Below, piece by piece: positions 20,422-45,799 of a stretch of DNA of 64,000 bases (positions are counted from its first letter, which is position 1; each line of letters starts with the position of its first letter). The DNA comes from Psilocybe azurescens. Lineage: Eukaryota; Basidiomycota; Agaricomycetes; Agaricales; Agrocybaceae. Location: assembly GCA_023853785.1 (NCBI GenBank), contig JAJIRX010000870.1:55590-119589 (forward strand), written 5' to 3'. The notes under the pieces were generated by a model. It worked only from the letters and a program-made list of their open reading frames with translations, was not told the DNA's origin and ran no database searches. A program made the translations under genes and the position numbers.

Positions 20422-23400
20422 TCAGACAATACCCAGCTCCCTCGCCTCTTCCCATTCTTTTGGGATACATCTTCTGGGCCGCAGCCGGGAACAAGCTGAG
20501 CCTAGCGTATCCACTCGCGAAGTCAAAGGATCCCTCACGGACATGAGAGCCTGAACCTTTTGGTTTGGAGCTACATGGACTTTCGCCATAGCCGGGTTGT
20601 CAAACTGTGGTAATGTGACAATGGGCTTCTCGAGCTTGGTGGTAAGCACATATGGAATGGTATACCTAGCAGACTTCATGAGCGATCTCTTCCCAGCCCA
20701 TTGGGGTGGTACGCTTACCGGTCTTTATCGATATTAAGTGTATTGACCCGATGAGTTGTAGCGACAAGCTTTCCACCAGTGAGACGCATGAATTGCATCC
20801 CTGTGTCAAGAAATATTAGTGCGATGACTGGGGAAAAAAACCTCAAGACGCACCGACGTTACACACTACTCCCCCTTCCACCATTGGGATATCAATCCAG
20901 GTACCACTGTGATTCTGTACTTGGAGACCTGGCCGAGACTGTATAAGGCAGGTCAAAAATGTAGATGGGTCACGATGCTCATGCATTCCATTGACAAAAC
21001 CTTCACGCTCCGAAGCTTTCATCTCCGGGGTGAGCGCAAGGTAATGCCAAATGGCGGCATTAAACTCGGTCTGGGAGGGGAAGTAGTCGTTGATTACCGA
21101 GGCCGGAACATCCAGAAGCTGGGCGATATGCTCGTTCAGCTCGAGGTTGAGTGAGTGATAGCGCTCAAAGAGTGCTTCGATGGTCTTTCGGAAACCTGGC
21201 AGGTCGGCTACTGGTGGCCATTGATTGGGGCCTGGAAGCCGTTAGAATGGTTGGACAAAAAGATTTTAAGGAGATGCCTACCTTCGTGGATGCGGAGCCA
21301 GAAAGGTACATTCGGGTCGACATGAGCGGGTCTTTCTGCTCCAAAGCGATAGGCTTCAGCATATGCCTAAAACGACTATTAATACCAGTCGGGCTTAGTG
21401 AAGTAAAGCACAACCTTATGGGGACCCTCAATGGTGTCTCCAGCGGAAATGACCACGCAATGAAGGCGAGTGCTCAGTTCCAATCGAGCTCTTCCAGTCT
21501 GCAGGTTTATTGAAGAATTGTGCCACGAGATCAAAGATTTGGTCTTGGAATGTCTGCTCGAATCCTGGTACATTGACAAAGATACCAAAGCCGACGTCCT
21601 CAAGCGCAAACTTCAGTTGCTTGAAGTACTCCGTAGGGTTAGATTTCGCAAGACAGAAGTCGATCGTAGGAACATCGTCGAAGTCCTGCTTGGAAGGTAC
21701 TGCAGGAGGTGGGGCAGGAGACTGAAGGGCTTCAGCGCGGTGAATAGCGGACCTCATCTTGGAAGCAAAAGATTCGACGTGCTGCTCGGATATCATGGTG
21801 TAGTGCTCGCCATCGACATCGATCATCTCATAATGCTTCCCAGAATAGTTTTTCCACTTGGAGAGTCGGTCACGTTTGTATTCCTCCCTCGTGCCCATTG
21901 AGGGGGAGAGGAATGGCGCTAAAACACCGTGGTCAAGGCCCCGTCAATGCGTCCTGAGGGTATGTAGGTCCGCCCTGGTTGTTCTTCAGTTATAGAGATA
22001 GATATTACGACTACACACAGAATACGCACCTGTGAATGATACATCATATGCAACATTCACCCAACGATGAAAGTAGTCAATAGGCATCTGGAGCTCCTCT
22101 AATCTCGACTGATTGCAATGGGCAAATGTCCACTCGATTAGCTCCCTTGAGTTGGGCGGTTCTGTGTCAGAATCACCACCAGGGTTCTGAAGAAGCAGCG
22201 ATAATTTGAAATGTTCAAAGTCTTCTGAACGAATTAGAGCCAAGAACATGGAGAGATTGAGCCTGAAATTCAGAAACTACTAGTTAGGTGGGTATGCCGA
22301 TCAGAAACATATGACTTACAGCGTCTCAACCCAGACCAGTTCCTTCACTCTAAACTGAATGAAAGGCGGTAGGTTCAATACTCCGAGCCAAGGGACCACC
22401 TTACCCCTTTGCTCCAAGAGCTTGCCTATCTCGAAAGCAATTCCAGCACCAAAACTGTATCCAGCAAGGTAGTACGGGCCTATGGGATTATTTTTCACGA
22501 TGGCGTCTGCGTATATTTCGACCATCTCCTGCATAGATGACGGAGGAATTTCGCCAGCTTCAAGCCTCTGGCACGCGAGGGCGTATACCGGACGGTCGTC
22601 ATTTAAGATGCGGGCAAGGTTGATGAAAATAAGAACTTCGCCGACACCGGGGTGAACAAGGTATAGGGGTGGCTTCGAACCTTGCGGGTTGAGACACAAG
22701 AGAGGATTGTAGGACGCTTGGTGGTCACTCCCCTGATCAACCAATTGTTGGACATAGGCCGAGATCTCGGAAATGATCGGACGTTGGAGCAGTTCAATGG
22801 TGGGGATATTGACGATGCCGAAACGATCCTGCAGGAATGTTTTGAGGCGGATGAGGTGCATGGAGGAAGCACCCATGTCAAAGATATTCTGAGACACGTC
22901 GATAGAGGCCAAATCAAGCTCGAAGACGACGGAGACTCCTTCGCATACGACCTCCTCTAACGCCGGAACGAGGGAGCAGAGGATGCTGCGCGTGCTTGTT
23001 CGCGTCTAATAGAAGCCTCGCCGATGTACTTGTCAATAATGTTGAACTTCTGCTCCCTGTAAGCCTTGGCGAGCGCAATACGAGAAACCTTGCCTAACGC
23101 AGTCTTGAAGAAGAAATTCGCGGGGAAGAGGGAGGACAACATGGGGAGCCTGTGAACAGAAGGCAGCACAAACGTTTTGAATTCGTTGGTTTGTACTGAG
23201 GACTGACTCTACCTCTTCGTTTGTTAACGAACCGAGAGTAGCCTCCTCTATGACGACCCCGGTATGCTGGTAGAACACAGTATATGTTTCAGTATCAGCA
23301 CCGTCAAGCCGCGTAGCACAAACAAAGACAAGAGAGCTTTCGGCGCCAGTAATGTTTGAATCCGGCTATATAATGCTCGATGTCAACGTTGGGGTGTTTG

Positions 23401-24924
23401 ACGCCCGTTAACGTTGATGACGTCCTTGTGTCTGCCGAGCATATGGACATTCCCGTCATCGTCAAGGAGTGCCAGGTCTCCAGTAACAAACCACCCATCG
23501 GAGGTGAAAGAGTCATTAGTCGCTGTCGGATTGGCATAATATTGAGAAAATATTGCAGGCCCAGACATCTGCAGTTGACCGGCAACACCTGGAGAACAAG
23601 GAAGTGACGTATGAGGGTCCATAATGCGTACCCTTCCCCCCTGCATGGGAAGTACCAATCGAGAGATAGGTATCGTTCCCATAGGCTGATACAGTCTGTC
23701 TTATAGGGAGGTTATTGTAGATAATCCCTGCCTATGATTCGGGTTAACGAGGGATTCAGAGTCAAGTTGAAAAGAGGATACGAACCCCAGTTTCGGTCAT
23801 TCAAAGCGGCCCTTAAAGTTGTTCGGGAAGAGCCGAAACGCTCAATGATGTTGCTGAATTCAACGGCTGTTGTTACCGGATTCGCTTCCCCTCCTGTGAT
23901 TAAAACTCTGAGCGCAGACAGGTTCATAGAAAGACCTGCCGAATCCAAGGGCGTAGAAGTAAGAGAGCCATCCCGACAGATCTGCGGCTAAAAAGAAAGT
24001 TGGGGCTGAAAGTGTGGGTGATGCGGTACCTAGAGCACCAGTCGAGCAGGTTTTGAGGCTTGCGAATAATAGCAGAAGGGGAGACTTGGTATTGACTGTA
24101 TAGAGAGTAATTTCAGTTGAATTCACTGGAGACTTTGATAAACCAATACTAACGATGCACCGGGCGCAGATGGCATGAAGATGAGCTTCCGTAACATTTG
24201 CGGCGTGGTCGAAATTGATCCAGTTAAAAAATATGTCACTCTCATTGGTCCCATGCTTCGATGTCTTGCCTTTCACAGCAGAGAGAAGTATTGAGTGTGG
24301 CAGGACCACCCCTTTGGAATTTCCCGTGGATCCCGATGTCAACATAATGGCAACCGTTTCGTCAGTCGAGGCAGCGCGGAAGGGGTATATTTGGTCATCG
24401 AGCAATGAGCTGGAACTTGATGTTGAGTTGGTAATCTGCTCGACGTCGACAGTCTTGAATTCTGGGACCAGCCTTTCAACGATTAGAAGTGTTCCAGGGT
24501 CAGATATGAAAGTGGGTTTATTGAAGAGGTCCTGTAGATGATTGAGGAGGAGAGCCTGTCGACTTTCGTCAGGGTGAAAGGGTGGCAATGGGCATATGGG
24601 GATGCCAGCTAGTACAGAGAATATTAGCGCCAAGAATTGAATAAAGAATTGCAAAATAGATCTGACCAAAAGCACATCCCCAAAATAATAAGATGTGCGT
24701 CCTTTGATCATCGAATTTGGTAACAACAATGTCTTTTCCGCCACTCTGGAGACCCGACGCGAGGAGTGCCTTCGCAATGCGTTTGGCAGACTTCGGCCAG
24801 ATCGACAAAAGTCAAGGAATTCGCTAAGTTCCCAGAGTCATCTAGGAAGTGAATGGTGTTATTTGAAGCTCCAGCACGCAGGGTGAGAAGCTTCGGTTAT
24901 CGTCGTCGGTTCAGTGTTATGCAT
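20422..24924 (-). pseudogene. NRPS-like A-T-TE-2OG dioxygenase, copy 1 (frame-broken)
   Basis: This is a paralogue of the gene at 34333-38830, colinear through all domains. The adenylation part shows LTSGSTGNSKGVVLPHS and FFNWINFDHAANVTEAHLHA. The carrier site is IFDMGASSMHLIRLK. The thioesterase has YLAGYSFGAGIAFEIG and its histidine in GEHYTMI. The fused dioxygenase runs from VPTIDFCLAKSNPTEYF to MHEHRDPSTFLTCL (HxD coded at 20969-20983). Unlike copy 2 it carries several one-base gains: near 24880 (start region), 24790, 23975, 23118-23121 (an extra base in the CCCCGCGAA context of the minus strand) and 22970. A compensated pair of shifts sits near the C-terminus (20460-20550). It starts at ATG 24924 and the stop is 20422-20424. 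The divergent neighbour is O-methyltransferase copy 1. It is likely a pseudogene, but read error cannot be excluded. Confidence 0.7.
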
Positions 24925-26795
24925 CTTGCAGCTAAGTAGCAGATGGAGATGTATAGACAAGGCGCGGTGTATCTTCATTATTTAAGCGATTCGTTACACA
25001 ATACCATAAAGATCACTCTGTGAGGTGAGAAAAAGAACATGGGTTTGAGAATTGGTTAGTATGGGGACTAAGATTTGAGGTCCCTAAGACCCATCGAAAA
25101 TATATTTGGCATACCATCCGTCGACTTGATTGAGAGGGAGCAAGTTCAATACACCCATGCTTCTTGAATTGATATCCATAGTTAGTACGTAGTGTTCCAA
25201 ATTAAAGTCGATGGGCTAACAAGAGCTCAGTACTCCGATGTAACCAACAATATTCATCACAGGCACGCTGGTGCAGAGTAAGCATCAGATAACTTAGAAT
25301 CTGAATCTCTGCCGTGATGAAAGTACTAAGACAGAGGAGTATTTCACCATTTAAAAAGCCTTTATGGGAAATAAAGCTCACGCTCAGAGCTCAGTTCTTG
25401 AGCGTCTGGAAATCTTTGCTATGATTGGTGTCAATACAATTGAACTGTCAAAGTCAAGTCCGGGCGCAAGACTGGCAACCGAATTATACCAGCTGCTTAT
25501 TCACTCCATTCTCAAAAATACATGGCTCTGCAATATAGTCCTCATAACAGTGTAAATTGACTTCGGATATCAGTCTCTCTGTGTTGTGCACTTTCAAGAC
25601 TGGATTAGGCAGGCTGAGTTTGATCGGACTGTCGTGAGCAGCACTGAAATTATGCCTCCGTCTAAATTCAATTTATGTATTGCCTATCGGTCTAAATATT
25701 GTCGGCTGAAGTCTACAACCCCTAATGAGCATGTTGATACTATTGGCCGCATCCAAATTCGACACATGGCTAGAAATAAAAGTCCCGAGAATCTTGCCGA
25801 AGTCTAGACGTCAGAAACTCGAGCTTAGGGCGACCGTTTTATCAGTGTGATCGAACTTGCATGAGCGTTCTACACAATCAGATCACGCAGCGGTCATGAG
25901 GCAGATTCCTATAGAATGAACGTTCAATAACTTACATAACCGTCCGGTTGACTGACGGACCTGGCACCAACAAGATACTCGACTGATGACCAGTAAGTAG
26001 TCCTGTAAGGTTCTGGCGCATTTGTTTGTGTGCATGACTTTTTGATGGTTTATATGCCATTATGATCGGTTATTCCAAAAATATGGACAAGAGCATGGAA
26101 AGGCGGCATTCACAATCTACTCTGTATGATTCTCGAATCCAATTGGCCTTTACGGTGATCCAAAACGGCGTTTTCTGAAGGCCAGAATAACTTCGTGAGA
26201 AGACCCGCTGAAAAGAGGGAAATTTACTCCCAGTGGCACACTATCTAGTGTCAAGCGCGCAGTAGTCACTACATAGCGGTTGGTCTATGTATATACCGAT
26301 TTTCCCTCGCTTCGGGATGATGCTAATGGTGATCTTGTCAGGGTTTCTCGGCTAGATGTGAAGATTATGATGATCATAGATAAGTCAGAAATGGCACATC
26401 GTGGACAAGATCAAGTGAGATTTGTTCGACCTACAACCAAGCATGTACATTAATTCCCTAGGACTATGATGATAATGCCCTAAGTCTGTGAAAACGTCTT
26501 GCGATTCGCTTCTTTCTAGCCCCAGGCGAGCTTGGCTTTGATCCCTGTGAACATAGAAGGGTCGTAGTGATGTTTTTCTACGATAAATCTCAGTTGCTGT
26601 TCTAACTTGTAACATTAGATTATTGGCCTCTTCTGATCACGATCCCACGATAACAAGAAATAGCGCCCGTGATACCAATCCAAGCTTGCTTCTCTGAGTG
26701 ATGCTTGAGTCAGCAAGATGTCACTCTGATTCAGGAGGTACTATATCTCAGAGGAAAGCATTCCGTTATTCTTCACTTCTTCAACCCGTTCCACA
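24925..26795. other. Divergent intergenic region, copy 1
   Basis: This 1.9 kb lies between the NRPS-like relic and O-methyltransferase 1, which point away from each other. It should hold both promoters. The matching interval in module 2 is only about 750 bp, so extra DNA was gained here or lost there. I see no gene or clear transposon inside it. Confidence 0.4.
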
Positions 26796-28448
26796 ATGTC
26801 GCCCATTGATCTCGCCAACGACCTTCAGAAACTCGTCACCTCTACGTACTCTGGGGACGTCACCGACCCGTTCAAGCTGTACAAGGCGAAACACAGCATT
26901 TCCGATCTCTGTCTGGCGCTATTGCGATCTGTCCAAGGCCCCGAAGAGTATACGGCTATCTTGGCTGGTAAGTCATGCAATTTACTATCCAGTAGCATGT
27001 TCCGGGACTTAACACTGTCTATGTTTAGAATCCTGCCAAGAGTCTTCAGCTCTGAATGTTGTCGCGTCTCTAGGCATTGCAGATCGTATCGCCGATTCTC
27101 CGAATGGCGAATTGAGCCTGAAGGAGTTAAGCGAAAAAGTGAAAGCAGATGAGAAGTATCTCAGTAGGCATCGGATTTTACGTGACTCTTGTTCGCTATA
27201 CTGAATTTTGCCATCTCAGGTGTTGTACTAAGCTCACTTGTTTATCATGGATATTTCGTGGAAGTCGGGGGCTTTGGCTCCCAAATCTATGCCAACAATG
27301 AATTTAGTAACTTGCTTCTTACCGAAGACACCAACGCCAAAGGTGGCAAGAGTATGAAAGATGCGGTTGGTTTATCGTGAGTATACACATCGAAGGGTTT
27401 CCCCGTCCCCATCTCATACTTTTTTCCAGAGCCGACGACGGGGCAAAAGCAACCACTCGTTTGGTGGACGCTGCAACCGGCAAAGGAAAAGGCAACGCGA
27501 AGACAGCCGCGAACATCGCCTTCGACTTCAGTGATAGTCTCTTCCAATGGATGGCTTCTCCCGGAAACGAATGGCGAGGAAAGAGGGCAGCCAAAGCCAT
27601 GGTTCAACTCCATGGAATGGCGAACGGAGGTATAGGCGAAGGTAGTATCACATCTATGCTACCGAAAATGGTCCCTGAACCAAACATCCAGATTATCTTT
27701 GGGAGAAGCTTGCAACACCGATCATCGATATCGGAGGTGGAATTGGTTCGTTTGAGGGAATGCTCCTTTCTATTCCCAAGAACAAAGAACTCTCGTTCAC
27801 GATCTTCGATATTGAGAAGACTGTCGATCATGCAAAGAAAGTTAGTCGTTTTATTTTGCCTTACCTTGCTCTTGCTCTTTTTCACTCTGACTGTGTAACA
27901 ATAGGTATGGACCGGAAAACCCCAATGGATGCAGGAGCGCGTGTCGTTCATCGCTGGTGATTTTATGAAATCATCTCCTGCTGACAGCAAGATTCCTACT
28001 CCGGCTCAAGGGGCAGGAACCTATGTTATCCGCCATGTTCTGCATGACTGGGATGATACACAGGTGGGATATATACCTCGAAATAAGGCATACGCGTTTT
28101 GACCTAAGCGTTTTCAGGTCGTCACCATCCTTACACATGTCCGAAATGCCATGCTCGGATCGCCCAGCTCCACCCCACCAAAGCTCCTCCTCGTAGAGAT
28201 GATGCTTACTGAAACTTCCTCTCGATTTACACGAACGACATCTTTGCAGTTGCTGTCTTTGAATGGAGGCGTGACACGCACCGAAGGCAAGTTTGGCTGT
28301 TTGTGCTATGCATGGGCCTTGCATCTGATGTTTGTCTTCGGCAGTTGAATTCCGAAAGCTTATCAAGCAAGCGGGTTTCATTGTCGAGAGCGTCACGGAA
28401 GTCAGAGGTGTAGATCTGGTCGTCGCGTTGAAACCAACACCCTTGTAG
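26796..28448 (+). CDS. SAM-dependent O-methyltransferase (COMT-like), copy 1
   Basis: Eight exons: 26796-26967, 27029-27163, 27220-27376, 27430-27641, 27692-27840, 27905-28063, 28118-28286 and 28345-28448. Together they give 1257 nt, so 418 residues with no break. The N-terminal winged-helix dimerisation part includes SSALNVVASLGIADRIAD and VLSSLVYHGYFVEVGGFGS. The SAM-binding motif I is IIDIGGGIGSFEG. The catalytic-type block is YVIRHVLHDWDDTQ, whose His is the base in plant-type caffeate O-methyltransferases. The C-terminus is KQAGFIVESVTEVRGVDLVV. It should transfer a methyl group from SAM to a phenolic or similar hydroxyl of a small aromatic product. Intron 7 starts with GC (GCAAGT) rather than GT, as in copy 2. 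It diverges from the NRPS-like gene and is predicted cytosolic. The acceptor is unknown. Confidence 0.88.
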
Positions 28449-29035
28449 ATCACGGGTCAGAGTCCCAGAGTCGACAACCTGAGATAAGATGGTTTGATGA
28501 TTGAAATATTGGTGTAGTCGTGTACTTGTCAAGCAGAGATTTGTCTATACAATTTATGGCTTTAAATATAACTAGGAGGTCGTGTCCCATACCAGATCGA
28601 AGTTGAATATATTGGTTTCGTGGCTAGATTTAGTTTCTGTGGAATGTTCGGATTTCAGTACGAAAGAACGACAGAACTTTGATCGCCGTTTCATGAGCTA
28701 ACGTTGAGATTTACTCTCAAAAAACAATAAGAGAGATTGAATGCAGGGAACATAGCAGTAGTAGAAATAAGAGGCGAAATAAGTGTCTGGGGCAGACAAT
28801 GTTTGAGGTCAAGACTGTCACGTTTCGCAGGAGTGGAGAACCCATAACCTTGATCAAGTTCACCTTTTCTTAACCCTTGCACACAAACAACATAATGAAT
28901 TCTTAGGATCATTGTCATTCAGCAGCCAGCTCCTTGCATCCTCTCTCTCAAGTCAATCTTATTCTCGCAGGCCAACGTAACTTGCAATAAAATTTATACA
29001 AATACAATCTTGAACGGCGAGCCCGAGTCTGGTAT
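28449..29035. other. Convergent spacer between O-methyltransferase 1 and the flavin monooxygenase
   Basis: The genes on either side end here tail to tail. The spacer is AT-rich, with no supportable frame or structure. It should contain both 3' UTRs. Confidence 0.4.
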
Positions 29036-31171
29036 TTATTTTGTATTTTTAAATATCTTCGCAAAATATCCCCTGACATCTTCTTCGTTATCCACCATGG
29101 CTCCAATGTAGGTATCCGGGCGCACTATGACAATTGTCGACGGCCTTGTGCAATTCTGTTCCACGTACGCATCGTACGCATACCCTGCTTGATCTTCTAC
29201 CACAAAATCTCCCTGCGACAAGCTTATGTCTGCTTTGGTGTAGCCGTTTTTCAAAATGCCAACACTCTTGATTAAATCAGAAGGATACTCTTGAAGAGAG
29301 GCGACGACAAGAGAAGAGAGGCTTGAATCCCTTGTAAAGATCAACACAGTGTGATAGGACGATCCGAAAACTTTAAACAAGCTTGTAGGACCGTCTGTCC
29401 CCTTGTGATGAACTAGACCGGAAGCATCAGGAGCACGATCTCCAGCGCGGACTGTAATCCCAGTTGAGAAGGCATAGCGGGTACCTTTTGTGTGTATGGT
29501 GTCGAGGACGAGAGGACTTCCTCGGTAGTGCATATGGAGCATGTCGAAATCTCCACCACGGTTCCAGGCGTCGTTGTCGTCAACAATGGAGCTTTTGAAC
29601 GTCTTCTCGTGGACCTCACGTGTCTTGTCGAGCATTTCCGCTATGACCGGTAATCGTTCAGGACCGTAGGAGTCAAGAAGAGAGGGGGAGAAATCCCCCT
29701 AACGACTGCAGCCATTTTCCAGCCCAAATTTACCTATAAAATCACGGCAAGTGTCAGATAAAATCAATTCGACAAGAGAGTCAACTTACTGCGTCGTGTA
29801 TTCCAGAGTTCAAACCTTGCGCACCTGTAAATTCTTTCATTGAGACTAGTCATTGACACCCGCATTGAAAAACATACCGCTCAGTGCAAATATATGGGCG
29901 GCGTCTGCGAAAAGCTCATGAGATCAAGAGTCAATCATTTTAGGGAGGAATACACACCCCCAGCTACGAAACAGCGATCCTGCGAGTATTTCTCGACTGT
30001 ACGAATATTTGGGCTATGTCGCACGCTCTCAGTAATACTGGAATACTGATATAGAGACCAAACTCACGTATACGAGGAAATCCAAAGGAGGTTCCCAAAT
30101 TTAATTTCTCGTCGCCCCGTAAGCTCATATATGTCTTCAATTAAGGCTTCCCGGCTGGACGCCACTTTCTGGTGATCTACCTCAGCCCCTGTGTATAGCA
30201 TGTACATGTACTTGGACGTCAAATCCTCGCCTGCACAGAGCGATATTCTGAAAGACGTCAGCTTAAAGTATTAGTTCGGCTGAAGCACGCACTGCTTTGT
30301 CATCGGTTCCCCGCAGAAGAACCACCTCTAAAGGGATCGGTGAGTTCAGAGTCTAGATCAATATTTTTGTGATGCACATACGTCACGATTCAAGCCCTCT
30401 AGAACTTCAATATCACCAATGATGTAGCTCTGTGACGTTGTCTCGCCATAGAAACTGAGGTTCAGCCTTTTCCTGACCATGCTGTGGGCACCCTCGGCCG
30501 ACAAAAGGTATGGGGTGGTGATCGTTTCCACAGTGTGATCATTAGCACCAGGAGCTTGACTTCTCAGAGTCACTGAGACAAAATCCGTATGCTGTTCGAA
30601 ATCTTGCATCTCAACGCCCCATTCGATCTCCACACCCGCGTTCCGCAGGTGAGCTCGAAGAATTTCTTCGTGGCGCGACTGCCACAAGATCACCGGATTT
30701 GGCTGGCAGGCGATCAATACGGTAATTTTATAGCTATATGGAGGAAATACTCACGTATGGACGATCTGGGGTGGGCGCTATATACGGTGCCATGTCGAAG
30801 ACCTTTGACGGCTCCCGAGCTTGTGGTAAGTATAGCTCGGTTGTCAAGGGTGGTCCAGCGATTTTCTGTATATCTGGGAGTGTCCCAAGGACGCCATGCA
30901 GCTCGAGCGTTCGAGGCATAATACCTCCGCCACGTTGTCCTATGAAAGGGCCGCTCCGCTTCTCAACGATACGGACCGATGCCCCATTCTGGACTAATGA
31001 CAACGCGAGAGTGAGCCCTGTTGGACCTGCACCGACCTAGAAGATAGTCAGCGAATGAAAAGAGGATAACCATGAGAAACATACGATGAGGATTGGAGTG
31101 GGCATTTTACCAGTGGCGATGTGAGTGGGCTTGAAATCGAGGATTTGGTTTGGAGAGACTCCCGCGACCAT
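29036..31171 (-). CDS. Class A FAD-dependent aromatic-ring monooxygenase
   Basis: The gene starts at ATG 31171 (MVAGVSPNQILDFKP) or possibly ATG 31105 (MPTPILIV), and stops at 29036-29038. The nucleotide-binding GxGxxG is split by an intron: ILIV joined to GAGPTGLTLALSLVQNGA. Then follow EKRSGPFIGQRGGGIMPRTL, WQSRHEEILRAHLRNAGVEI, LLSAEGAHSMVRKRLNLSFY, DAAHIFALSG, AQGLNSGIHDAVNLGWKMA and the RAGDRAPDAS motif. A C-terminal thioredoxin-fold part ends in VRPDTYIGAMVDNEEDVRGY. This is the phenol/resorcinol hydroxylase branch, which uses NADPH, FAD and O2 to hydroxylate activated aromatics. One base seems missing in the G5 run at 29684-29688 (SPPLF must become SPSLLDSYGPER). No counterpart was found in module 2. 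It likely hydroxylates the pathway aromatic; this is inference. Confidence 0.82.
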
Positions 31172-32102
31172 CTATAAAGATAAAAGGTTATTTTCCTTGA
31201 CCTTCTAGCCCGATGTCACGTAGAATTCCACTGTATTAGATCTTTGATTTTGGGAGGAAGCAAAGGAACACCATGTAAGACTATGTTGGTCCTAGATTAC
31301 AACACGTTAAATTTAGAGTCTATTTAAATACCCAACTCACTAGCCCCTGTGATCGCAGCGTTCGTCCGCTACCATACACCAACTGAAGATTTGTAAGACC
31401 ATGATAGAACCTCGTGTGAACGCTTGAGCATGCGATGCGCCGAAACGTAGAGATTTTGTGAACCTCATTCCTTGTATAGATAATTCAATATCTCGAATAA
31501 GATTGGCAATGAGAATTATCATAGACAATTTGGATGCCATTCTGATCGCAGCTATCACCCACATCCAGGAACTGCCAGTTGATCACGAGAACTGCGTTGA
31601 CGTCCTTACCCCAGGCGCTGAAGAATAGGATGGAACTGTCGAACGTGAGCATGCAGTACGAAGCTTGAGTACCAATGACCTTTAATAGGCAATTCTATAG
31701 AAACAAAACGTCATTCATAAGCATATCGTGTTCACACTGCCGCAAGGTATCACCAATCTGTCTAAGAGAAAGACATTCACTGGGAAAGTCTACCTACAAC
31801 TCGAATTCTGGTGCCGGTCAGATCGTACGTAAGGTAACCTCTCTTGAGCTCATATCTCAGTTCCACAACTCACACTAGTGCCAGTTCCGCCTACTCTACG
31901 ATGCGAGAAGTAGCCTTGGTGATCTTCAGCCTACAGGTCTTGGGATTTATGAGTGTATATTTGCTTATTTATTGATAGTCGCACCTTCAAGCCCGGCGGC
32001 AAATTTAGCAATCTCTCTTCATGCATTTTACTGTGGGATGCAAATTGTAAGGCGTCTGTTATAAGTCCTTCGAGCGTACTACAGTTTGCCCCAGGATCCA
32101 GC
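31172..32102. other. Divergent spacer upstream of membrane protein 1
   Basis: This stretch separates the minus-strand monooxygenase from the plus-strand membrane protein and so should hold both promoters. No frame or repeat is supportable. Confidence 0.4.
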
Positions 32103-33398
32103 ATGTCGTCAACCAATGCGACTCAGCCAAACTTTGCACAAATCCCTCTTCCTCCTGGTTTCACTTTGGCACAATTCCAAGCTCTTCAAGGGACTATTGG
32201 TGCGTATGTGCTTGCAACCAGTGGACGAAATAACTTACAGCGTTTTTAGTCAATGTTGCTATTGCCATGGCGGTTGCGGTTGCAATCGTGGTTTGGGACT
32301 TGTAAGAAAATCATTCACTCAACCTGGATCTCAGCTTGATATGTTTCTTTTTATTCAAGCCTCTCCATGATCCCGACCGAGCGAGACCTCTTCCGTCAGA
32401 AAGACAAGAAGTTGTGGAAGACACCTGCGGCGTGGGCGTAAGTATTTCAGTGTACCCCATCATATGTGATCGAGCTCACACTTTAAACCGGACAGATTTA
32501 TGGTTCTTCGCTATTCTGGAGTATTTGCTCTTGTTCCGGGGCTATTCTTTACTTCGTTGCAGAACCAACACTGTCAAGTAGCTGCTTCTTTAGGTGAAGT
32601 CGGTGTTGTTCTTGTCACCGGATCGGCGGGAATTATATTTGCCTATCGAGTATTCGCCATCTGGCGCTTCAACAAGCCCGTGGTCGTTCTCGTGTCAATC
32701 TTATATGTCTTTATGGTGTCCTGCTGGGTACGTCTCTGGCTTGAGTGTAAGACAAGTTGATACCTAATGACATAACAGATAGCAGTTGGCTCACAACTCC
32801 GTGCCTCCCAGGGTCCTCCTACACCCTTTGGCTCCAACTGCCAGCTGCATCCAGTCCCGGACTGGGACCCCCTTCCTTTCGCATCGTCTGTGTTATTCGA
32901 TGGTGTAGTTCTTTTCCTTACGGTCATTAAAATCCGGGAAGATCAAATCAAGGACTCCGCAATCGGAGGTCAGATTTTACGTGATAATATTCTCTACTTC
33001 GTCATCGTTTCTGTTACCAACATCGTTGTGCTGGTCATAAATTGTCTTGGCCCCAGATTTGACAATATAAAGCCGGTTACACTTCCGTACCCTACGCTTA
33101 TGACCACTGCTATGGGTACTCGGTGAGTTCTTCTTTTATAAGCTGGCCGACTTTCTGGCTCATTGTTTGACTTGACAGCGTCTACTTGAACCTGAGGTTG
33201 TACAATAAGAGAAGACACGAGATTTCGACGCTTCCAAATGTCTCTACAGGAGACACCATGCGATTCAAGTCCAACGATGTCCCGATACCTCTCAATTCAA
33301 TGAAAAGTGCCACCATGATAGTTCAGTCCACGGAAGTTCACAAAGATTGGAACGGTTCCTCGAAGGTTGATTTACAAACTGTTTCTGATAGCATCTGA
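32103..33398 (+). CDS. Seven-helix integral membrane protein (DUF6533-like), copy 1
   Basis: The start is ATG 32103 (MSSTNATQPNFAQIPLPPGF); exon 1 ends at 32199 (GTGCGT) and the stop is 33396-33398. Seven hydrophobic segments can be read in order: VNVAIAMAVAVAIVVWDL, FMVLRYSGVFALVPGLFF, VGVVLVTGSAGIIFAYRVF, VVVLVSILYVFMVSCW, SSVLFDGVVLFLTVIKI, NILYFVIVSVTNIVVLVINC and the segment near PYPTLMTTAMGTRVY. A polar C-terminal tail of about 60 residues follows. After helix 1 the WDLLSMIPTERDLFRQ and KLWKTPAAWAF blocks resemble the start of DUF6533-type proteins of Agaricomycetes, whose role is not established. A second copy lies at 50411-51787. Possible jobs are sensing or transport linked to the metabolite; that rests only on co-location. 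Confidence 0.75.
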
Positions 33399-34332: not shown

Positions 34333-37300
34333 TTAGACTATACCCAACTTCTTCGCCTCCTCCCATTCCTTGGGATACATCTTCTGTGCTGCAGCTGGGA
34401 ACAAGCTCAGCCTAGCATATCCACTGCGTGTCGAGGGATCCTCAACGGCCATAAGGGCTTGGACTTTGCTATTTGGGGCAACGTGCACCTTGACTATAGA
34501 CGGGTTATCGAACTGAGGTAAAGGAACAACGGGCTTCTCGAGTTTGGTGGTGAGAACATATGGAATGGTGTACCTATGCGCAGTTGATAAGGTGCCTCAG
34601 AAAGAGCTCACAGTAGTGAACATACCTATCGCTATCTATTTTCAGGGTGTTAACTCGATGTGTCGTGGCGACAAGCTTGCCACCAGTGAGGCGCATAAAT
34701 TGCATACCTGCAATAAGGTGCATTAGTACAATGTCAAGCCAAGATCATTTCCATGACGCACCGACGTTGCATACTACTCCTCCTTCAACCATCGGAATGT
34801 CAACCCAGGCGCCACTATGATTCTGAACTTGAAGACCAGGGCGCGACTGGATCAAGCAGGTCAAGAATGTCGATGGGTCGCGATGCTCATGCATGCCATT
34901 CACAAAGCCTTCGCGCTCGGAAGCTTTCATCTCCGGGGTAAGCGCGAGGTAATGCCAGATGGCGGCATTGAACTCTGGCGGCGACGGAAAGTAGTCGTCA
35001 ATAACCGAGTTTGGTACGTCCAAGAGCGTTGCGATATCTTTGTTCAGTGCTAAGTTGAGCGCGCGATATCGATCGAAGAGTGTTTCAATTTTCTCTCGGA
35101 AACGAGGAAGATCGGCCCCAGATGGCCATTGATTAGGCCCTGATGAAGTTATATCAGCATTGCTAAAATGCAAATATAAATGCTATGCAGACCTTCATGA
35201 ATGCGAAGCCAGAAAGGAACGTTAGGGTTATCACGTGCTGGTCTCTCGGCGCCGAATCGGAAGGCTTCGGCATACGCCTAAGATCGATTATTAGCACCAT
35301 ACAATGAAAATAAGTGTAGAGCATCACAACCTTATGAGGTCCCTCGATGGTGTCACAGCGGAAATGACCACGTAAAGAAGGTGATTTGTCAGTTCCAATA
35401 GAGCTCTTCCATTCTTCCGGCTTCTTGAAGAATTGAGCAACGAGATCGAAAACCTCGTCTTGGAAGCTCTGCTCAAATCCTGACACGTTAATGAAGATAC
35501 CGAAGCCAACGTCTTCAAGAGCAAATTTAAGCTGGTTAAAGTACTCGGTAGGGTTGGATTTAGCAAGCGAGAAGTCAATTGTAGGGACGGCATCGAAGTT
35601 TTGCCTGGAAGGCACTGCAGGAGCAGGAGCAGGAGACTGCAAGGTCTCTGCACGATGAAGTGCCGCCCTCATCTTGGAAGCGAAAGATTCAACATGCGTC
35701 TCGGAGATCATGGTATAGTGCTCGCCGTCGACGTCGGCCATCTCGAAATTCTTTCCAGAATAGTCTTTCCATTTGGAAAGGCGGTCGCGCTTATATTCCT
35801 CTCTTGTTCCCATGGAAGGAAGAGGAATGGCACAGAAAACGGTGGTCAAGGCACTCTTGACGCATCCAGAGGGGACGTAAGTCCGTCCTAAAGTTGTGTA
35901 AGCGATGGATGTAGACATCAAATAACAAAACGCGCACCCGTGAAAGAGACGTCATACGCAACATTGATCCAGCGGTGGAAGTACTCGATGGGCATGTTGA
36001 GCTCCGCCAATCTCGACTGGTTACAGTGAGCGAAAGTCCACTCAATCAATTGCCTCGAGTTGGACGGTTCCAAGTCCGAGTCTCCTCCAGGATTCTGAAG
36101 AAGAAGGGCCGACTTGAAATGCTCAAAGTCATCGGAGCGAATGAGGGCCAAGAACATGGACAGGTTAAGCCTAAAGAAACGGGTCAAAAAAGTATACCAA
36201 AAATTTTTTTGACATACAATGTCTCTACCCAGACCAGCTCCTTCACTCTGAATTGAATGAAAGGTGGAAGATTCAGTACACCGAGCCAAGGAACCACTTT
36301 GCCCCTTGCCTCGAGTAGTTTGCCTATCTCGAAGGCAATACCAGCACCGAAACTATATCCAGCGAGGTAGTAAGGGCCTGTGGGGTTATTTTTCACGATG
36401 GCGTCTGCGTATATTTCGACCATCTCCCGCATTGACGACGGAGGAGTTTCGCCAGCTTCGAAGCCTCTAGCACGTAGGGCATACACCGGACGATCGTCGT
36501 TTAGGATGCGGGCGAGGTTAATGAAAATGAGAACTTCACCGACACCGGGATGGACAAGGTATACGGGGGCTTCGAACCTTGCGGGTTCAGACACAGAAGA
36601 GGATTATAGGGCGCCTGATGATCATTCCCCTGATCAACCAATTGCTGCACATACGACGAGATCTCGGAAATAATTGGGCGTTGGAGGAGCTCAATGGTGG
36701 GGATGTTGACGATGCCGAAACGGTCCTGCAGAAAGGTCTTCAGACGAATGAGATGCATGGAAGAGGCGCCCATGTCGAAAATATTCTGAGACAGGTCAAT
36801 GGTGGCCAAATCAAGCTCGAAGACAACCGAAACTCCTTCGCATACGGTTTTCTCCAAGTCGGAACGAGGAGCAGCAGATGCGGCGCGTGCCTTTTGGCGT
36901 CTAGCTGAAGCCTCGCCGATGTACTTCTCGATGATGTTGAATTTCTGCTCCCCATAAGCCTTGGCGAGCGCGATGCGAGAAACCTTGCCTAGCGCAGTCT
37001 TGAAGAAGAAATTGCGGGGAAGAGGGAGGACAACATGGGGAGCCTGCGAACAGAAGGCAGCACAAATGTTTCGAATGCGCTGGTTTGTATCGAGGACGGC
37101 CTTGAGGTCGTCGTCTGTCCATAAAGCGATGGTGTCCTCTTCTATGGCGACGCTAGTATGCTGGTAGAATATCGTATACGTTTCAGTATCAGCTCCCTCA
37201 AGCCTGAGAGCACAAGCAAAGACACAAGAACTTTCGACGCCATCAATATTTGAATCAGCGATATAATGTTCGATATCCACACAGGGATGCTTAACACCGT

Positions 37301-38830
37301 TCACGTTGATGACGTCCTTGTGTCTGCCGAGCATATGGACATTCCCATGGTCGTCAATGAGCGACAAGTCACCAGTGATAAACCAACCATCGGAAGTGAA
37401 GGAGTCGCTAGTGGCCGCCGGGTTGGCGTAGTACTCAGAGAAAATAGATGGCCCGGACATCTGAAGTTGGCCGACAACACCCGGCGGGCAAGGACTCGAC
37501 GTAACAGGATCCATAACGCGAACCTTGCCACCGACATGAGAAGTCCCAATGGAGAGATAGGTTACACCTTTGTAGTCGGACACGTTCCTCAGAATAGGGA
37601 GAGTATTATAAATGATTCCCGCCTATCATCGTGATCAATATTAGCAAACGTTTCGATGAAATGTAAAAAAAAACCAAAAATAGAAGGTACAAACCCCAGT
37701 TTCAGTCATTCCAAACGCGGCTCTCAACGTTGTTCGCGGAGCCCCGAAACGCTCGATGATATCGCTGAATTCAACGGCCGTAGTCACAGGGTTCGCTTCC
37801 CCTCCTGTGATTATAACTCTAAGCGCCGAGAGATCTAGGGTTCCAGTTGATTCCGACGAAGTGGGACTGAGGGTTGCATCACGACAGATCATGGCTAACA
37901 AGAAGTTAGGGCTAAAAGTGTGGGTAACGCGATACCTGGAGCACCAATCCAGGAGGTTCCTGGGTTTCCGAATGATCGCAGAGGGAATGACCTGATACTG
38001 TCTATGAAATGCGTCCGTTTAGCCATAACCAATCAAGGAATGGAGTAAAGAAATGCTCACGATGCACCGGCCCAGATGGCATGAAGATGAGCTTCTGTGA
38101 CATTTGCGACGTGGTCGAAGTTAATCCAGTTGAGGAATGTATCACTCTCCTTGGTACCATGCTTCAACGCCTTGCCTCTCACCGCGGAGAGCATAACTGA
38201 GTGTGGCAGGATCACTCCCTTGGAATTTCCAGTGGATCCCGATGTCAACATAATGGCAACTGTCTCGTCTGTAGAGGCAGCGCGGAAGGGGTATATTTGT
38301 GCATCGAGCGACGCGTCGAAAGTTGTCATGTTAAGAATTTGCTCGACATCGATGCTGCGTAATTCTGGCACGAGTCTTTTGGCAACTAAAAGCGCGCTTG
38401 CGTCTGAGATGAAAGTGGGACTCCCAAAGAGGTTCTGTAGATGATTGAGAAGTAGAGCTTGACGGCTTTCGTCAGGGGTGGAAAGGTGGCAATGGGCAAT
38501 AAGGAATGCCGGCTGTTGCGACGCGTATATCGGTTAGAAAGTCATTTCAAGAACGTAAACCAAGAGGAGACTGACCAAAGGCACATCCCCAGAATACAAG
38601 TATGTGTGACCTTTGATCATCGAACTTGGCGACAACGATGTCTTTGCCACCGCCCTGGAGACCTGAAGAAAGTAGCGCCTTCGCAATGAGCTTTGCAGAG
38701 TCGATGAGCTCAAAAAGGTGTAAGAGCTTGTCACGTCCCCGGATTCGCCAAGGAAGTGGACGACACTAGAGGATGTTTTGGCGCGGAGGGTGAGGAGCTC
38801 AGTAATAGTCGTTGGCCCATTGGTTTCCAT
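34333..38830 (-). CDS. NRPS-like synthetase A-T-TE fused to 2OG-Fe(II) dioxygenase, copy 2
   Basis: The start is ATG 38830 (METNGPTTITELLTLRAK) and the stop is 34333-34335; about 1300 residues over roughly ten exons. The adenylation domain has MLTSGSTGNSKGVILPHS, FLNWINFDHVANVTEAHLHA, ALRVIITGGEANPVTT and FFKTALGKVSRIALAKAYGE. It resembles the keto-acid-activating domains of atromentin-type synthetases. The carrier site is IFDMGASSMHLIRLK. The thioesterase has its serine in GYSFGAG and its histidine in VDGEHYTMI. Without a stop or new start the frame goes on to VPTIDFSLAKSNPTEYF, KFALEDVGFGIFINVSGF, HEHRDPSTFLTCLIQ (HxD), LVATTHRVN (distal His) and DRYTIPYVL (candidate 2OG Arg). Two one-base losses in homopolymers (38712-38716 and 36565-36569) break the frame; copy 1 shows the expected base at the second. 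It probably makes, then oxidises, an arylpyruvate-derived dimer; the substrate is inferred. Confidence 0.82.
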
Positions 38831-39583
38831 TTTGCAGCTGGAAAGGCAGAGATGTATTTGGGGACACCCAAGTATGTGCGACGGGTTTTAATGGCTCGTC
38901 GGTTACTTTCCATTGATGACGACCAAAAATCTTATCTGAGAGTGATGTGTATGTACCACTGTTGAGCGCTGAGCGGATCTTTTGAGGACCCTGCCCTGCC
39001 CTGACATCCCAGAATGCATGTGGGACAGATGGAAAGTTGTGAAAAAGGCTTGAGAGTACGTACACAAGGTTTGTACCTAATTTTAAATAAGCATCAAACA
39101 TGGAAACGGTCTAAAACATTTTCCGAATTGGACGAAAATTATACGTAAATTGTGTGGGTGATCATTTTGATTGAGTCGGTAATCAGTTATCCGATTTGAC
39201 CGCGCTTAACCGTCATCAGATGGCCTATTGGCAAAATGCTTACATATAATGCTCAAAACATCCGTATGTTTTGCAAGACGGTCACCATGATCGAAAATGT
39301 CAGAAATTGCCGCGAGATAAGCTCAGATGAGCCGGGACCGACATGGCTTGGGAACGAAGTCTACTCTCTTGTGGGCTGACAGCCAGCGCTAGAATGCAAG
39401 TACGTATGTTTTGCTTACCGGGTCAAAGAACAGTTCTCCATCTTTGTCTGCTCAATTTGGTCTTGATATCTGCGGATGTGGTAGGGGTTGTTCGAGTCGT
39501 TGCTGCTTGTGAAACGTCTTCAGTAAATTCAGTTGAAATTGCGTTATTTTATTAATAGGTCCTCTTCTTCATCACCCACCACA
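38831..39583. other. Divergent intergenic region, copy 2 (shared promoter)
   Basis: This 750 bp head-to-head spacer lies between NRPS-like copy 2 and O-methyltransferase copy 2. Such a layout suits co-expression from one bidirectional promoter region. I found no operator motif that I could support. Confidence 0.45.
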
Positions 39584-41255
39584 ATGTCCTCCATCGAGCT
39601 CGTGAACAACCTTCAGAAACTTGTTCTGTCCACATTCTCTGGGGAAATTACCAACCCGTTTGAAGTCTACAAGGCAAAACATCGAATCTCCGATCTTTGT
39701 CTGGCGCTTTTGAGATCTGTCCAAGGCCCTGAAGAATATACGGCCATCTTAGCTGGTACGATGACATATGAGCTGTGGGTAATAGGCGCTGATTATTATC
39801 ACCCTCATTTCTTTGTAGAATCTTGTCAAGAATCTTCAGCGCTGAATGTCATTGCATCGCTGGGCGTGGCGGACCACATCGCTGAATCTCTTAATGGACA
39901 GCTGAGCCTGAAAGAGTTGAGTGAGAAAGTCAAAGCCGACGAGCAGTATCTCAGCGAGTATTCCCTTGACCTATGATGGTCAATCATTCTTATTCTCTTT
40001 TACATGATAGGTGTTATGCTAAGCTCGCTTGTCTACCATGGCTACTTCGTAGAAGTGGACGGCTTTGGATCCCAAGTCTACGCCAACAACGAGTTCAGCA
40101 ACGTGCTTCTCACCGAAAACACCAATGCCAAAGCGGGTAAGGGCATGAAAGACGCTGTCGGCCTGGCGTGAGTACACAGCTCGAAGGCTCTTCCTGTGGA
40201 CGCTGAAGTTCATGTTTCAACAGAGCAGACGACGGGGCCAAAGCTACCACACGCTTGTTGGACGCTACGACCGGCCAAGGAAAGGTAAACGCAAAGACCG
40301 CAGCGAACATTGCCTTCGATTTCGACGGCAGTCTTTTCCACTGGATGTCCTCTCCCGGGAATGAGTGGCGAGGAAATAGGACAGCAAAGGCTATGGTCCA
40401 ACTTCATGGAATGGCGAACGGAGACATAGGGGAAGGTATAACTTGTCTACGCTCCCGAAGATTCATCCTGAACCCAGTTTCCGACAGACTATCCATGGGA
40501 GAAGCTTTCAACGCCAATCATCGATATCGGAGGTGGAATTGGGTCCTTCGAGGGGTGCTACTGGCTACTCCGAAGAACAAGGACCTGTCATTCACGATTT
40601 TCGATATCGAGAAGACTATAGAACATGCGAAGAAAGTGAGTCTACCTTTACAGCCATACCTCACCATACGCCCTTCTGATTTCAATGACCAAACATCAGG
40701 TTTGGACCGGTAAACCACAATGGATGCAAGACCGCGTATCTTTCATCGCCGGTGACTTCATACGACCATCTCCTGTTGACAGCAAGATTCCTACTCCAGC
40801 TCAAGGAGCAGGCACCTACGTCATCCGCCACGTCCTGCACGACTGGGACGATGCACAGGTATGCTCTATTTCTCAATTTACAGGATAGGATATATTTTTC
40901 AAAATATGTTTCCAGGTCGTCACTATCCTCACGCACGTCCGGAACGCCATGCTCGGATCGCCTGCGTCCACACCACCACCAAAGCTCCTTCTTGTAGAGA
41001 TGATGTTGACCGAGTGTTCCTCCCGCTTCACGCGAACGACCTCGTTGCAGCTGCTGTCTTTGAGTGGAGGTGTAACGCGTACAGAAGGCAAGTCTGGAGC
41101 CCTTTGTCATGCAGTATATCGCTCATCTCGGCGATCGTTTTCGTTTACCAGTCCAATTCCGCAAGCTGATCGAACAAGCGGGGTTCATTGTCGAGCACGT
41201 TGCCGAGGTCAGGGGTGTAGATCTGATTGTCGAATTGAAGCCGGCGCCCCTGTAG
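39584..41255 (+). CDS. SAM-dependent O-methyltransferase (COMT-like), copy 2
   Basis: Eight exons at the same positions as copy 1: 39584-39755, 39819-39953, 40011-40167, 40224-40435, 40488-40635, 40700-40858, 40916-41087 and 41152-41255. Exon lengths match copy 1 except exon 5 (148 against 149 nt) and exon 7 (one extra codon in PASTPPPK). The missing base in exon 5 falls in the G4 run at 40552-40555, straight after the SAM motif PIIDIGGGIGSFEG, and shifts the frame unless restored. The block YVIRHVLHDWDDAQ is intact and the protein ends GVDLIVELKPAPL. Introns 2 and 7 start with GC (GCGAGT and GCAAGT). It is predicted to methylate a phenolic product of the adjacent synthetase. I treat it as a functional gene with a consensus error. 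Confidence 0.85.
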
Positions 41256-41605
41256 TTTGTAAGTAGTCCTACATAAGTACATCGTCCCATTGTCAGAGAG
41301 GTGAAATTTCACACCCGAAATGGCCATTTACATGCCGATGTCATTAACCGCCAAAGTCTCCCAAGGTCTGACATTGGGGATAAACAATCCCTGTGATGGC
41401 CGCGGCTTGATAATGTCACGTGTGACAGCCCTGCACATCACAAATGTTGAGACACTGTAATTCCATGAGTTCTTTATGGTTTCCCTCCATTTTTTTTTGT
41501 ACAAGGGATATAGTATGCTATCTAGCAATAAATTAAAAGGCTGAATTTATATTTTTATAGCCAATAAAATGCCAAAAATCCAAAATTATGGTACAAATTG
41601 CAGTT

Positions 41606-44587
41606 TTAGTCCTCATCTATCCATTCATCATTATCATCCACATCCTGTAACTCCTGTTCATCATCACCAATCTCATCATCATCACTACTATCCTCTTCAA
41701 TCTCCCATTCACCATTCAAAAATAAATCAACAGCATCTGAGAGTGCCTTCCTCTTCTCATCAGCCAATGTGGGTAATGCACCAGTAGCAAGATTTGGTGC
41801 TCCAGCAAGCTTAAAAAGCTTCAGCTGGTCAGCCAGACAATTTCCTTTGAGCTTCATGACCTCCTCTTTGTCAAGTACTAACTCCAAATTTGCCAGCCGC
41901 TCTGCATTATCATTCTTTGTCTTCTCAAGTTTCTCCTTCCTTGTTGTTTTTTTTACTTGGCGTATATTGCGGAACTCAACAATGTCTTTGGCGCCGCTGC
42001 TTCTCCTCTCCTTGAGACTCACGAGCAAGCATGCGTAGGTATTGATAGTCCTCTGGTTCTGTGAATTTTGCTGCCATAAATGCTTGTGTATTATTTTTGT
42101 AAAACATGGCTAGTGCATTATGATTGAGCAGTGTTAGCTGTGGCTGTCGACTCATGAGCTGCCGGAAAGACCCAAGAGCACCTTCATTCTCATCATTTGT
42201 GGCTGGCAGCCATGCCAATTCTCTCTCCTCTGCAGTTGCTTCATCAATTAACCCTCCCTCAGCAAATTCAGATGTGAATCGCTCCCAAGTGTTTGCTGCA
42301 CCAGTGAAAAAAGCCACAAGCAAATCCTTAAAGTAAGGCAGTTTTTGGGCAATTTCAAGCACCTTGTTAACAACAGCAGAATTCTCCCATTCATCATCAT
42401 TCAGAGATGCAGTCAAGTGCAAGGAGGAAGCTCCAATGAGAATATCAGGGTTATCAATGATTTTTTGCATGTGGTCATATACATGGTGATGAAGAGGACC
42501 AAGGTCAAGCATGTTCTGATCTTTGTCTCTGGATGTACGAATGGATTTCATGTAGGGGTATGAGACAGATTCAGCATATATAGCAAGGACAGCAAACTCA
42601 GCAAGAGTAGCATCACAAAAGATTTTGCTCCATATGGTTAAACTGAGAGTTCTGCTTGTTTATGCGTGAAATGTATCAAAAACTCAATGAAGACATCTCT
42701 GTATAAAAGCAAGGCTGCAGCTGCATCACAATATGATTGGAAGCGATTGTTGGATGTGTCAGGGAATGTAAATGGAGTTCCAACATGCTCCCACCACCAA
42801 TAGCGAAAGACATCATGGTGTCCCTTCTTGTCATCCTTGTGATTGAAAATAGCACCAGCAATTTGAGCTGCCTTAATTGCACCACGGGCAGACTTCTCAA
42901 ATGCACGTTGCTGGGCTAGTGTAGGTACATCACCTTCCCCAAGAGCTGTGGTCCGCTCTTGGATAACTGGATCATTATCCCGATTAGCAAGAAGAACAGG
43001 TCCTGGCAATTTGAGCACATCCCATAGTGCTGACATGGCTGCATATCCACCACGGACTGTGTTAAGATCCTTGTGGCATCCGCAACCTGCCCAGATAAAG
43101 AGACGAAGAAACCGCTGCTCATTCTCTTCAAGGTCCTCAAATGCTTCCTTTCCAAGTTTTGCCACTATTCCCTCTACCATCTTTGCCCGCTTATCGGCTT
43201 TCACATTGTCAGATAATGTATTCCACTTGGATTGTCCACCCATTGTCTTAATCATTTTCTTCTCTGCCTCATTGAAGAGCTTGTTTATTTCCTCCATTGA
43301 CAATCCTAACATTGCTTCCTCACCAAGATGCTGATCCACAGCCCAAGCTTTAAGCTCTTCAAGTAGCCGTGCATCCTTCTTTTCTTTTGCACAATGATCT
43401 GTGTTCATCCCAACAAGCTTGATCAGAAGCTCAATAAACTTGACAAGCCTTCCTACACGCTTGCCAAATGGACTGCCATTATAGAGATCAATGATTTTTT
43501 TAAGAGTATTTTCCCAATCAATCATGGCCTCTTCACTTGATCCATCCCGTGATGATTGAATTCCAAGAAAACGTGTAGCTTGTTGTTTTGCTGTGCCAGC
43601 AGATGACAGTGATGCATAATCTTCAACAGGGAGGTGAACATGTCGGGAGTTATAATTGATACTGCGGTGTCCAGTTCCATCAGCACTGAAGGTCATGCTT
43701 TTGCATTTGCCATTTCATAACCAAGCTGAATTTGAGCTGCAAAATATCCTTCATGAATAACACGTGCAATGCTTGGGGGCTGATGGTACCAACAAGTGTA
43801 ATTCCAGCTGAATGAAGCACAGAAAAGATCACCTCATTGACATAGTTCCTTGAACATCCAGCTTTGACAAGTAGGCGCACTACATTTCGGGTTTCTTCAG
43901 TGAAGACACCTTTTTCATCAGATGATGAGTGGATGTCTCCTGCTTCACCTTTGCTTTTGCAGCTGCAACTGCATGATCTTTGACACCTGATGCATGAGCA
44001 ACAGATTTATGCAAACGTGAAGCCTCTCTTTGCAGTGCAGCAAGATTCAAATTGGCTATCTCTACTTTTGATTGAGCTTTGTCAAGCTGGGATGTCCAGC
44101 AAGCCATTGAATGTGAAAGTTCCATCTGAAGGCCATTATTGGCTTTTGTAAGTAGTGAAAGAGCTTGTTCAGAATCCTTGGATTTCTTTGAAAGGCGAGC
44201 AGACAGTTCTTTCTCAGCATACACAAGGATCTCCTTCTGCTGTTCAAGCCAGTCAATCTTGGCAGAACCATGGTTTGCTTTTTGGCGCTCCATGCGGAGA
44301 CTATGATATGTAGCCTCTTGCTTAGATCGCCAGTGAGAAACTTCACCCATAAGCTGGGCACACTTTTCCCAGGAAATCTCCAGATCAGAATGCAGGCTCT
44401 CACACTCTAAACTCTTCTGAGCAAGCTGCTGTTCTAACTCATTATTGCTGGCAAGTGCCTTCCTCAGTTGATCCCAGAGATCCTCAGCTGCAGTCTCAGA
44501 ACCAAGAGCAGCACGCTTCTGAGTCATAGATCCAAGAGCTTTCATCCGAGCTTGCTCTAGTTGCTGGTGAGATTTTTTAGGAGGCAT
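41606..44587 (-). mobile_element. Unclassified Agaricomycete transposon: coiled-coil protein plus putative DDE-type transposase
   Basis: The first frame (44587-43880, 235 aa) starts MPPKKSHQQLEQARMKALGS and is a long predicted coiled coil. It runs by frame change or intron into VFTEETRNVVRLLVKAGCS. The main part shows MTFSADGTGHRSINYNSRHV, KFIELLIKLVGMNTDHCAKE, FIWAGCGCHKDLNTVRGGYA, GAIFNHKDDKKGHHDVFRYW, NMLDLGPLHHHVYDHMQK, FEGGLIDEAT-like text and PATNDENEGALGSFRQLMS. It ends in an acidic tail, DSSDDDEIGDDEQELQDVDD. I recall proteins of this type as multi-copy in mushroom genomes. The acidic positions in SADGT, MNTDHC and DENEGALG could be a D-D-E set; this is inference. Several single-base shifts break it, including an A run at 43699-43702. 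It inserted between O-methyltransferase 2 and the hemerythrin gene. Confidence 0.65.
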
Positions 44588-44951
44588 AGCTGGGGTTTTC
44601 TGACATGAGAAATTGAGAATGAGTTAACAGATATTATCATACTCAGCCAAAAATATTGTTCATACCACTTATTCTGGGGCAAAATGTTGTCAAATGTGGA
44701 TATGTGATGATGTGATTGAATGTCTATGCTTAAATGAGCTAAAAGTACAAATTAGAGCTTGCTAAAGGCTTACAACAGTGAATTTAATGCTTTTCTATGC
44801 AGAAAATATGAGAAAAAGGGTTGAAGTAGTGCAATTATATGGCCTAGAGCGATATGTAGTGGTGGAAAGTATGCAAAAGTACTCTAAATGCGAGCCAGGA
44901 GTGCACCATTCTTGATGCAGAGCCTTTGCAGCATGTTCTGCCGCCATTTAG

Positions 44952-45276
44952 TAAGGTAGAGGACATGCGCTACTGTCAACATCATGTGTATGTGACCTCC
45001 TGTGTGACTCACTGCTGTTTCCACACCCGACCATGCTGTTGACTTACTCTTGTGCTTCAAAGTCACTTCATATTTCCAGCGGGGCAACTTTTTGACATAG
45101 TTTCTTCAAAAATTGTTTCCAACAAGTCATTCTTATTTTAATGAAGCAACTTTTGGTGCAGCCAAAATTTTATTTAACCAAGATTTGAGTATGCCCCAAG
45201 GGATTTACATGTTTTCCAGTGATTTTGTCACGCAAAGATCATGTGATGTAGACACAAGCGCATGTCCTCTACCTTA
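44952..45276. repeat. Inverted repeat pair bounding about 325 bp
   Basis: The 19-base sequence at 44952-44970 (taaggtagaggacatgcgc) occurs as its exact reverse complement at 45258-45276. The similarity continues inward with mismatches (gtcaacatcatgtg against the complement of catgatgtagacac). The core aaggtagagg recurs at about 45784-45793. It could be the ends of a small nonautonomous element or subterminal repeats of the neighbouring transposon. Confidence 0.7.
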
Positions 45277-45283
45277 ACATGTG

Positions 45284-45787: not shown

Positions 45788-45799
45788 GTAGAGGCACAG

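Follow-up and report, generated by a model that had tools for sequence, protein, structure and literature searches.

A Psilocybe azurescens synthetase of the PpaA1 kind with a fused dioxygenase domain and a possible late step in terphenyl tailoring

The minus-strand gene at 34333..38830 of the window (the whole 64,000-nucleotide stretch of Psilocybe azurescens DNA analysed here) encodes a predicted synthetase that, by domain layout and residue spacing, belongs to the PpaA1 kind. It is likely a polyporic acid synthetase, and we tentatively propose, at a little under even weight, that its C-terminal 2-oxoglutarate (2OG) dioxygenase domain, D, would oxidise a later terphenyl intermediate, probably an O-methylated or hydroxylated one. 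The layout is already published; new here are the dN/dS of the D core, the conservation of HxD and of the Pro that follows it in 43 relatives, and the methyltransferase-like and FAD monooxygenase neighbours.

Two copies of an A-T-TE-D synthetase gene

For this gene, copy 1, a hand-drawn exon model predicts 10 exons separated by nine GT-AG introns (47-72 nt), running from 38830 to 34333, with all four domains in one gene in the order A-T-TE-D. Pfam profiles were scored on separate exon pieces, and those listed for copy 1 pass their curated cut-offs. The A domain (exons 1-4, approximate limits 36850..38830) gives an AMP-binding match of 43.8 bits on the exon 2 piece 38063-38473. It is followed on the same strand by a T domain (approximately 36600..36849; PP-binding, 25.7 bits, cut-off 20.8) with its serine in FDMGASSM, and by a TE domain (approximately 35680..36599; Thioesterase, 85.0 bits on 36220-36573) with a GYSFG serine and a GEHYTMI histidine. 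D occupies exons 6-10 (34333..35583, also minus strand), with DIOX_N at 41.3 bits in exon 6 and 2OG-FeII_Oxy at 26.4 bits on 34763-35137. The catalytic residues expected of an Fe(II)/2OG dioxygenase are present: the HxD...H iron ligands, as HRD and the distal His of VATTHRV, and the Arg of DRYTIP, which we take to be the 2OG-binding residue. The layout, strand and extent proposed in an earlier note made from the sequence alone are thus borne out by the exon model and the Pfam matches, as are the HxD, distal His and candidate 2OG Arg that it had picked out.

The second paralogue that the note had named is also real. Copy 2 lies on the minus strand at about 20422..24924 and shares 77% DNA identity with copy 1 over 20424-24790; pieces of it match 2OG-FeII_Oxy (30.4 bits) and Thioesterase (79.2 bits). 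The 70.4 Mb genome, searched both at the DNA level and with the D domain, gave only these two synthetase copies, which both lie within the window. Comparison of the window with itself revealed three gene pairs duplicated in the same order: the synthetases (20424-24790 with 34335-38699), methyltransferase-like genes (26776-28448 with 39564-41255) and a third pair without a Pfam match (32243-33138 with 50560-51449), so that the duplicated blocks span 20424-33138 and 34335-51449. In the copy 1 block, the space separating the methyltransferase-like gene from the third gene holds long minus-strand ORFs (41606-44623); two are without a Pfam match, and our guess is that these ORFs represent a mobile element that has entered the duplicated region.

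The TE-D junction and the reading frame

Exon 6 (35887-35331) holds both the end of TE and the start of the dioxygenase, with GEHYTMI of the former and VPTIDF of the latter in one frame; the corresponding junction of copy 2 is a single open frame at 21943-21431. The earlier note had described one uninterrupted frame, which holds for this junction in both copies but not for the gene as a whole: upstream of the junction, copy 1 as assembled shifts frame three times, twice in A and once at the start of TE. As assembled, then, the gene is without a continuous frame through all four domains, and we count this against our preferred reading.

It is very improbable that TE and D are transcribed separately, or that their join is an assembly artefact. 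The junction falls inside a single exon in both copies, and the cloned cDNAs of ppaA1 and ppaA2 from Psilocybe cubensis carry all domains (PMC10316625). A search of public proteins with the fusion exon returned 21 proteins, seven of which run from TE into the dioxygenase; because the same run recurs there, neither chance nor misassembly accounts for it. A further four carry the dioxygenase start with no TE ahead of it, so separate forms may exist, although these proteins may be either stand-alone forms or the products of separate exons. The remainder comprise one protein with TE and then a D-like tail lacking the dioxygenase start motif, seven with the TE motif and no dioxygenase, and two with neither motif. 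The one-exon junctions, the seven fused proteins and the cDNAs together led us to reject a split into distinct TE and D genes, as well as a misassembled join, at this point. Of the nine plasmid records that tblastn matched to the fusion ORF, none covered more than 38% of it.

The frame changes themselves raise the possibility that one or both copies, copy 2 above all, are decaying pseudogenes. Frame changes in copy 2 outnumber those in copy 1, and 21 of the 23 exon indels that separate the copies have lengths not divisible by three; in 18 of these 21, copy 1 lacks bases that copy 2 has. Three of the frame-shifting indels lie in exon 6, none of them between GEHYTMI and VPTIDF. Against decay, the substitutions are strongly synonymous, with a dN/dS of 0.086 over the whole gene (Nei-Gojobori, 1319 of 1325 codons), although dS values of 0.95-1.62 between the copies make this ratio and the domain ratios below rough, a point that also counts against our preferred reading. 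As a control of assembly quality, we compared neighbouring pairs among the 34 HSP70 matches that this assembly contains. In five pairs (C477, C454, C719, C434 and C631) the DNA of the two matches overlaps and the profile continues while the frames differ; introns do not account for the switch. As HSP70 matches switch frame in this way, single-base sequencing error is the likelier cause of the synthetase frame changes than decay, with the proviso that some of the HSP70 genes could be pseudogenes themselves. Taken together, we regard pseudogene decay as unlikely. Single-base errors are probably common in this assembly, and frame-based readings of the genome warrant caution. Elsewhere in the assembly, many actin-family matches lie close together at C147:35806-49118 and C655:15458-29414, in what look like tandem arrays of actin-like genes.

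Likeness to PpaA1 and constraint on D

In PpaA1 and PpaA2 of P. cubensis, A-T-TE is extended at its C-terminal end by an Fe(II)/2OG dioxygenase domain (Seibold et al. 2023, PMC10316625), and PpaA1 has been characterised as a polyporic acid synthetase. The earlier note knew of no characterised example of this layout, a claim that does not survive the PpaA1 report, since PpaA1 is just such an enzyme as the note had named as its refutation, and an architecture new to the literature is ruled out by the two published proteins. The locus described here shares with them both the layout and the presence of two copies. It is also of similar size, at about 1332 residues with nine introns, compared with 1333 and 1326 residues and eight and nine introns in genes of 4432 and 4471 bp. 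Our comparison with PpaA1 rests on published residue numbers (Ser628, His1186, Asp1188, His1243, Pro1189 and Val1260) rather than on sequence identity. On this basis, the T serine stands at 626 here and at 628 in PpaA1, the distance from it to the HxD histidine is 557.7 codons compared with 558, and HxD and the distal His are 57 residues apart in both. The Pro directly after HxD and the Val 17 residues past the distal His are likewise present here as in PpaA1. For PpaA2, no product was obtained (PMC10316625), which weighs against our preferred reading.

Substrate preference can be approached through specificity position 5, occupied by Val302 in PpaA1 and by Ile298 in CorA, the synthetase of Terana caerulea (PMC9603100). 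At the Val302 position, located by offset from the T serine and not by structural alignment, copy 1 has Ile. This is one of the two residues, Ile or Val, that mark clade I polyporic acid synthetases, a class linked to phenylpyruvate (PMC10316625). By analogy, the A-T-TE part of copy 1 likely makes polyporic acid. CorA resembles it as a clade I polyporic acid synthetase, to which copy 1 is likened by analogy, in the Ile and in its adjacent O-methyltransferase genes, but as described consists of A-T-TE only, D being a feature of the present locus (PMC9603100).

What D does is less clear from the published work. In Aspergillus, PpaA1 with point mutations in the D iron ligands, or with D deleted, still gave polyporic acid and phlebiopsins, and the protein remained fully active with D mutated or absent; fusing D to CorA produced no change (PMC10316625). 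The expression hosts convert added polyporic acid into phlebiopsins without PpaA1. The authors judged D of PpaA1 to be catalytically inactive and a catalytic function unlikely, citing Pro1189 and Val1260 as an argument against substrate binding, and considered that its role warrants further study. The suggestion in the earlier note that the product is oxidised as it leaves the enzyme finds no support in these experiments; if D acts, its substrate is likely not the product that has just left the enzyme. The same results weaken our later-substrate reading, because mutating or deleting D of PpaA1 altered nothing that was measured. They favour instead a protein that makes polyporic acid only, with D a non-catalytic passenger or a part with a structural or interaction role, an explanation that we take seriously while thinking it rather less than probable.

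Conservation of D does not fit easily with a passenger. A search with the HxD exon gave 43 relatives. All of them have the Asp; the His is present in 42, and the one other has a gap there. Nine of the 43 could be reached by the upstream pattern, and all nine have both the distal His and the Arg. The Pro directly after HxD, one of the two residues cited against substrate binding, is present in 43 of 43 and is thus a family trait. The equivalent of Val1260 is present in both relatives in which it could be read, P0043 and P0060, and also appears to be a trait of the family. The solved structures nearest to the HxD exon are 2OG enzymes, including thymine dioxygenase (PDB 5c3o and 5c3p; E 4.7e-7 and 5.7e-7), which is a 2OG-Fe(II) oxygenase like D but stand-alone rather than fused, and which carries aromatic residues where D has Pro and Val (PMC10316625). 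The D-like protein P0043 comes from Cubamyces sp. BRFM 1775, where its source names it 'Clavaminate synthase-like protein'. It has HRDP together with the distal His, Arg and Val, and may represent a stand-alone form of D. Its predicted model is poor (mean pLDDT 63.1, pTM 0.38), which we again count against our preferred reading.

Between the two synthetase copies, and within approximate domain limits, dN/dS is 0.045 for the D core (276 codons), 0.039 for T (83 codons) and 0.051 for TE (271 codons). That for A is higher (0.14, 589 codons), and misaligned codons around the frame changes have likely inflated it. D thus appears to be constrained about as tightly as T and TE, and is likely still useful. 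A low dN/dS of this sort indicates usefulness but does not prove catalysis, as constraint does not distinguish a structural from a catalytic role.

Neighbouring genes and a proposed late step

Each synthetase is flanked by a divergent, plus-strand methyltransferase-like gene, at 39564..41255 beside copy 1 and at 26776..28448 beside copy 2. Their Methyltransf_2 scores, 20.6 and 21.8 bits respectively, come from exon fragments and fall under the curated cut-off of 22.3, which counts against the reading that we prefer. The assignment has a second basis in a IIDIGGGIGSFEG motif, which we take to be typical of SAM binding. A solved-structure search with a methyltransferase fragment gave two matches, with E values of 0.21 and 0.56. 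Between the copies, on the minus strand at 29039..31036, lies a gene for a phenol-hydroxylase-like FAD monooxygenase, supported by solved relatives and by two FAD_binding_3 matches (54.9 and 41.8 bits, cut-off 22), with Phe_hydrox_dim at 21.5 bits, under its cut-off of 24.9. Self-comparison found no second copy of this gene within the window. Pfam scoring of nine further ORFs in the window gave a single match, to the SPO22/ZIP4 meiosis protein in the plus-strand ORF at 13262-13588 (23.8 bits, below the cut-off of 27.5). In the plus-strand ORF at 61021-62067, NPHP3_N, which is the NTPase part of a NACHT-like protein, scores 68.0 bits against a cut-off of 24.8.

These neighbours, seen at the locus described here, suggest how the pathway might run. 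The A domain would activate phenylpyruvate, consistent with its Ile at the specificity position, T would carry the activated phenylpyruvate, and TE would dimerise it and then release polyporic acid. The products of the methyltransferase-like and FAD monooxygenase genes would likely methylate and hydroxylate polyporic acid, and D would act last, on the tailored intermediate, with Fe(II) and 2OG. A D domain that works on a later intermediate would explain both its constraint and the null effect in Aspergillus, where the synthetase was expressed without partners.

Several observations support a later substrate for D. The methyltransferase-like gene is duplicated with each synthetase and the FAD monooxygenase gene lies between; D has a low dN/dS, kept iron ligands and 2OG enzymes as structural relatives; and layout and numbering match a proven polyporic acid synthetase. 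The corA gene of T. caerulea likewise adjoins three O-methyltransferase genes, with no backbone-oxidising gene nearby in the part of the account available (PMC9603100). In the allantofuranone (alf) pathway of Allantophomopsis lycopodina, which also combines a polyporic acid synthetase, an O-methyltransferase and a dioxygenase, the dioxygenase works after methylation (PMC12105029). That system differs in being from an ascomycete and in its dioxygenase, AlfB, a separate aromatic ring-cleaving enzyme described as being of the extradiol type rather than a fused 2OG enzyme. The more specific claim, that D of the PpaA1 type is catalytically active and, as a tailoring oxygenase, takes as its substrate polyporic acid that the products of neighbouring genes have methylated or hydroxylated, we regard as plausible but somewhat less likely than not.

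For synthetases of the PpaA1 kind, the locus adds a D domain held about as tightly as T and TE, a Pro that is family-wide, and named candidate partner genes, whose methyltransferase-like and FAD monooxygenase products could supply the substrate that D has been missing. If D is indeed active on a tailored derivative, a single synthetase would catalyse the opening step of its pathway as well as a late one.
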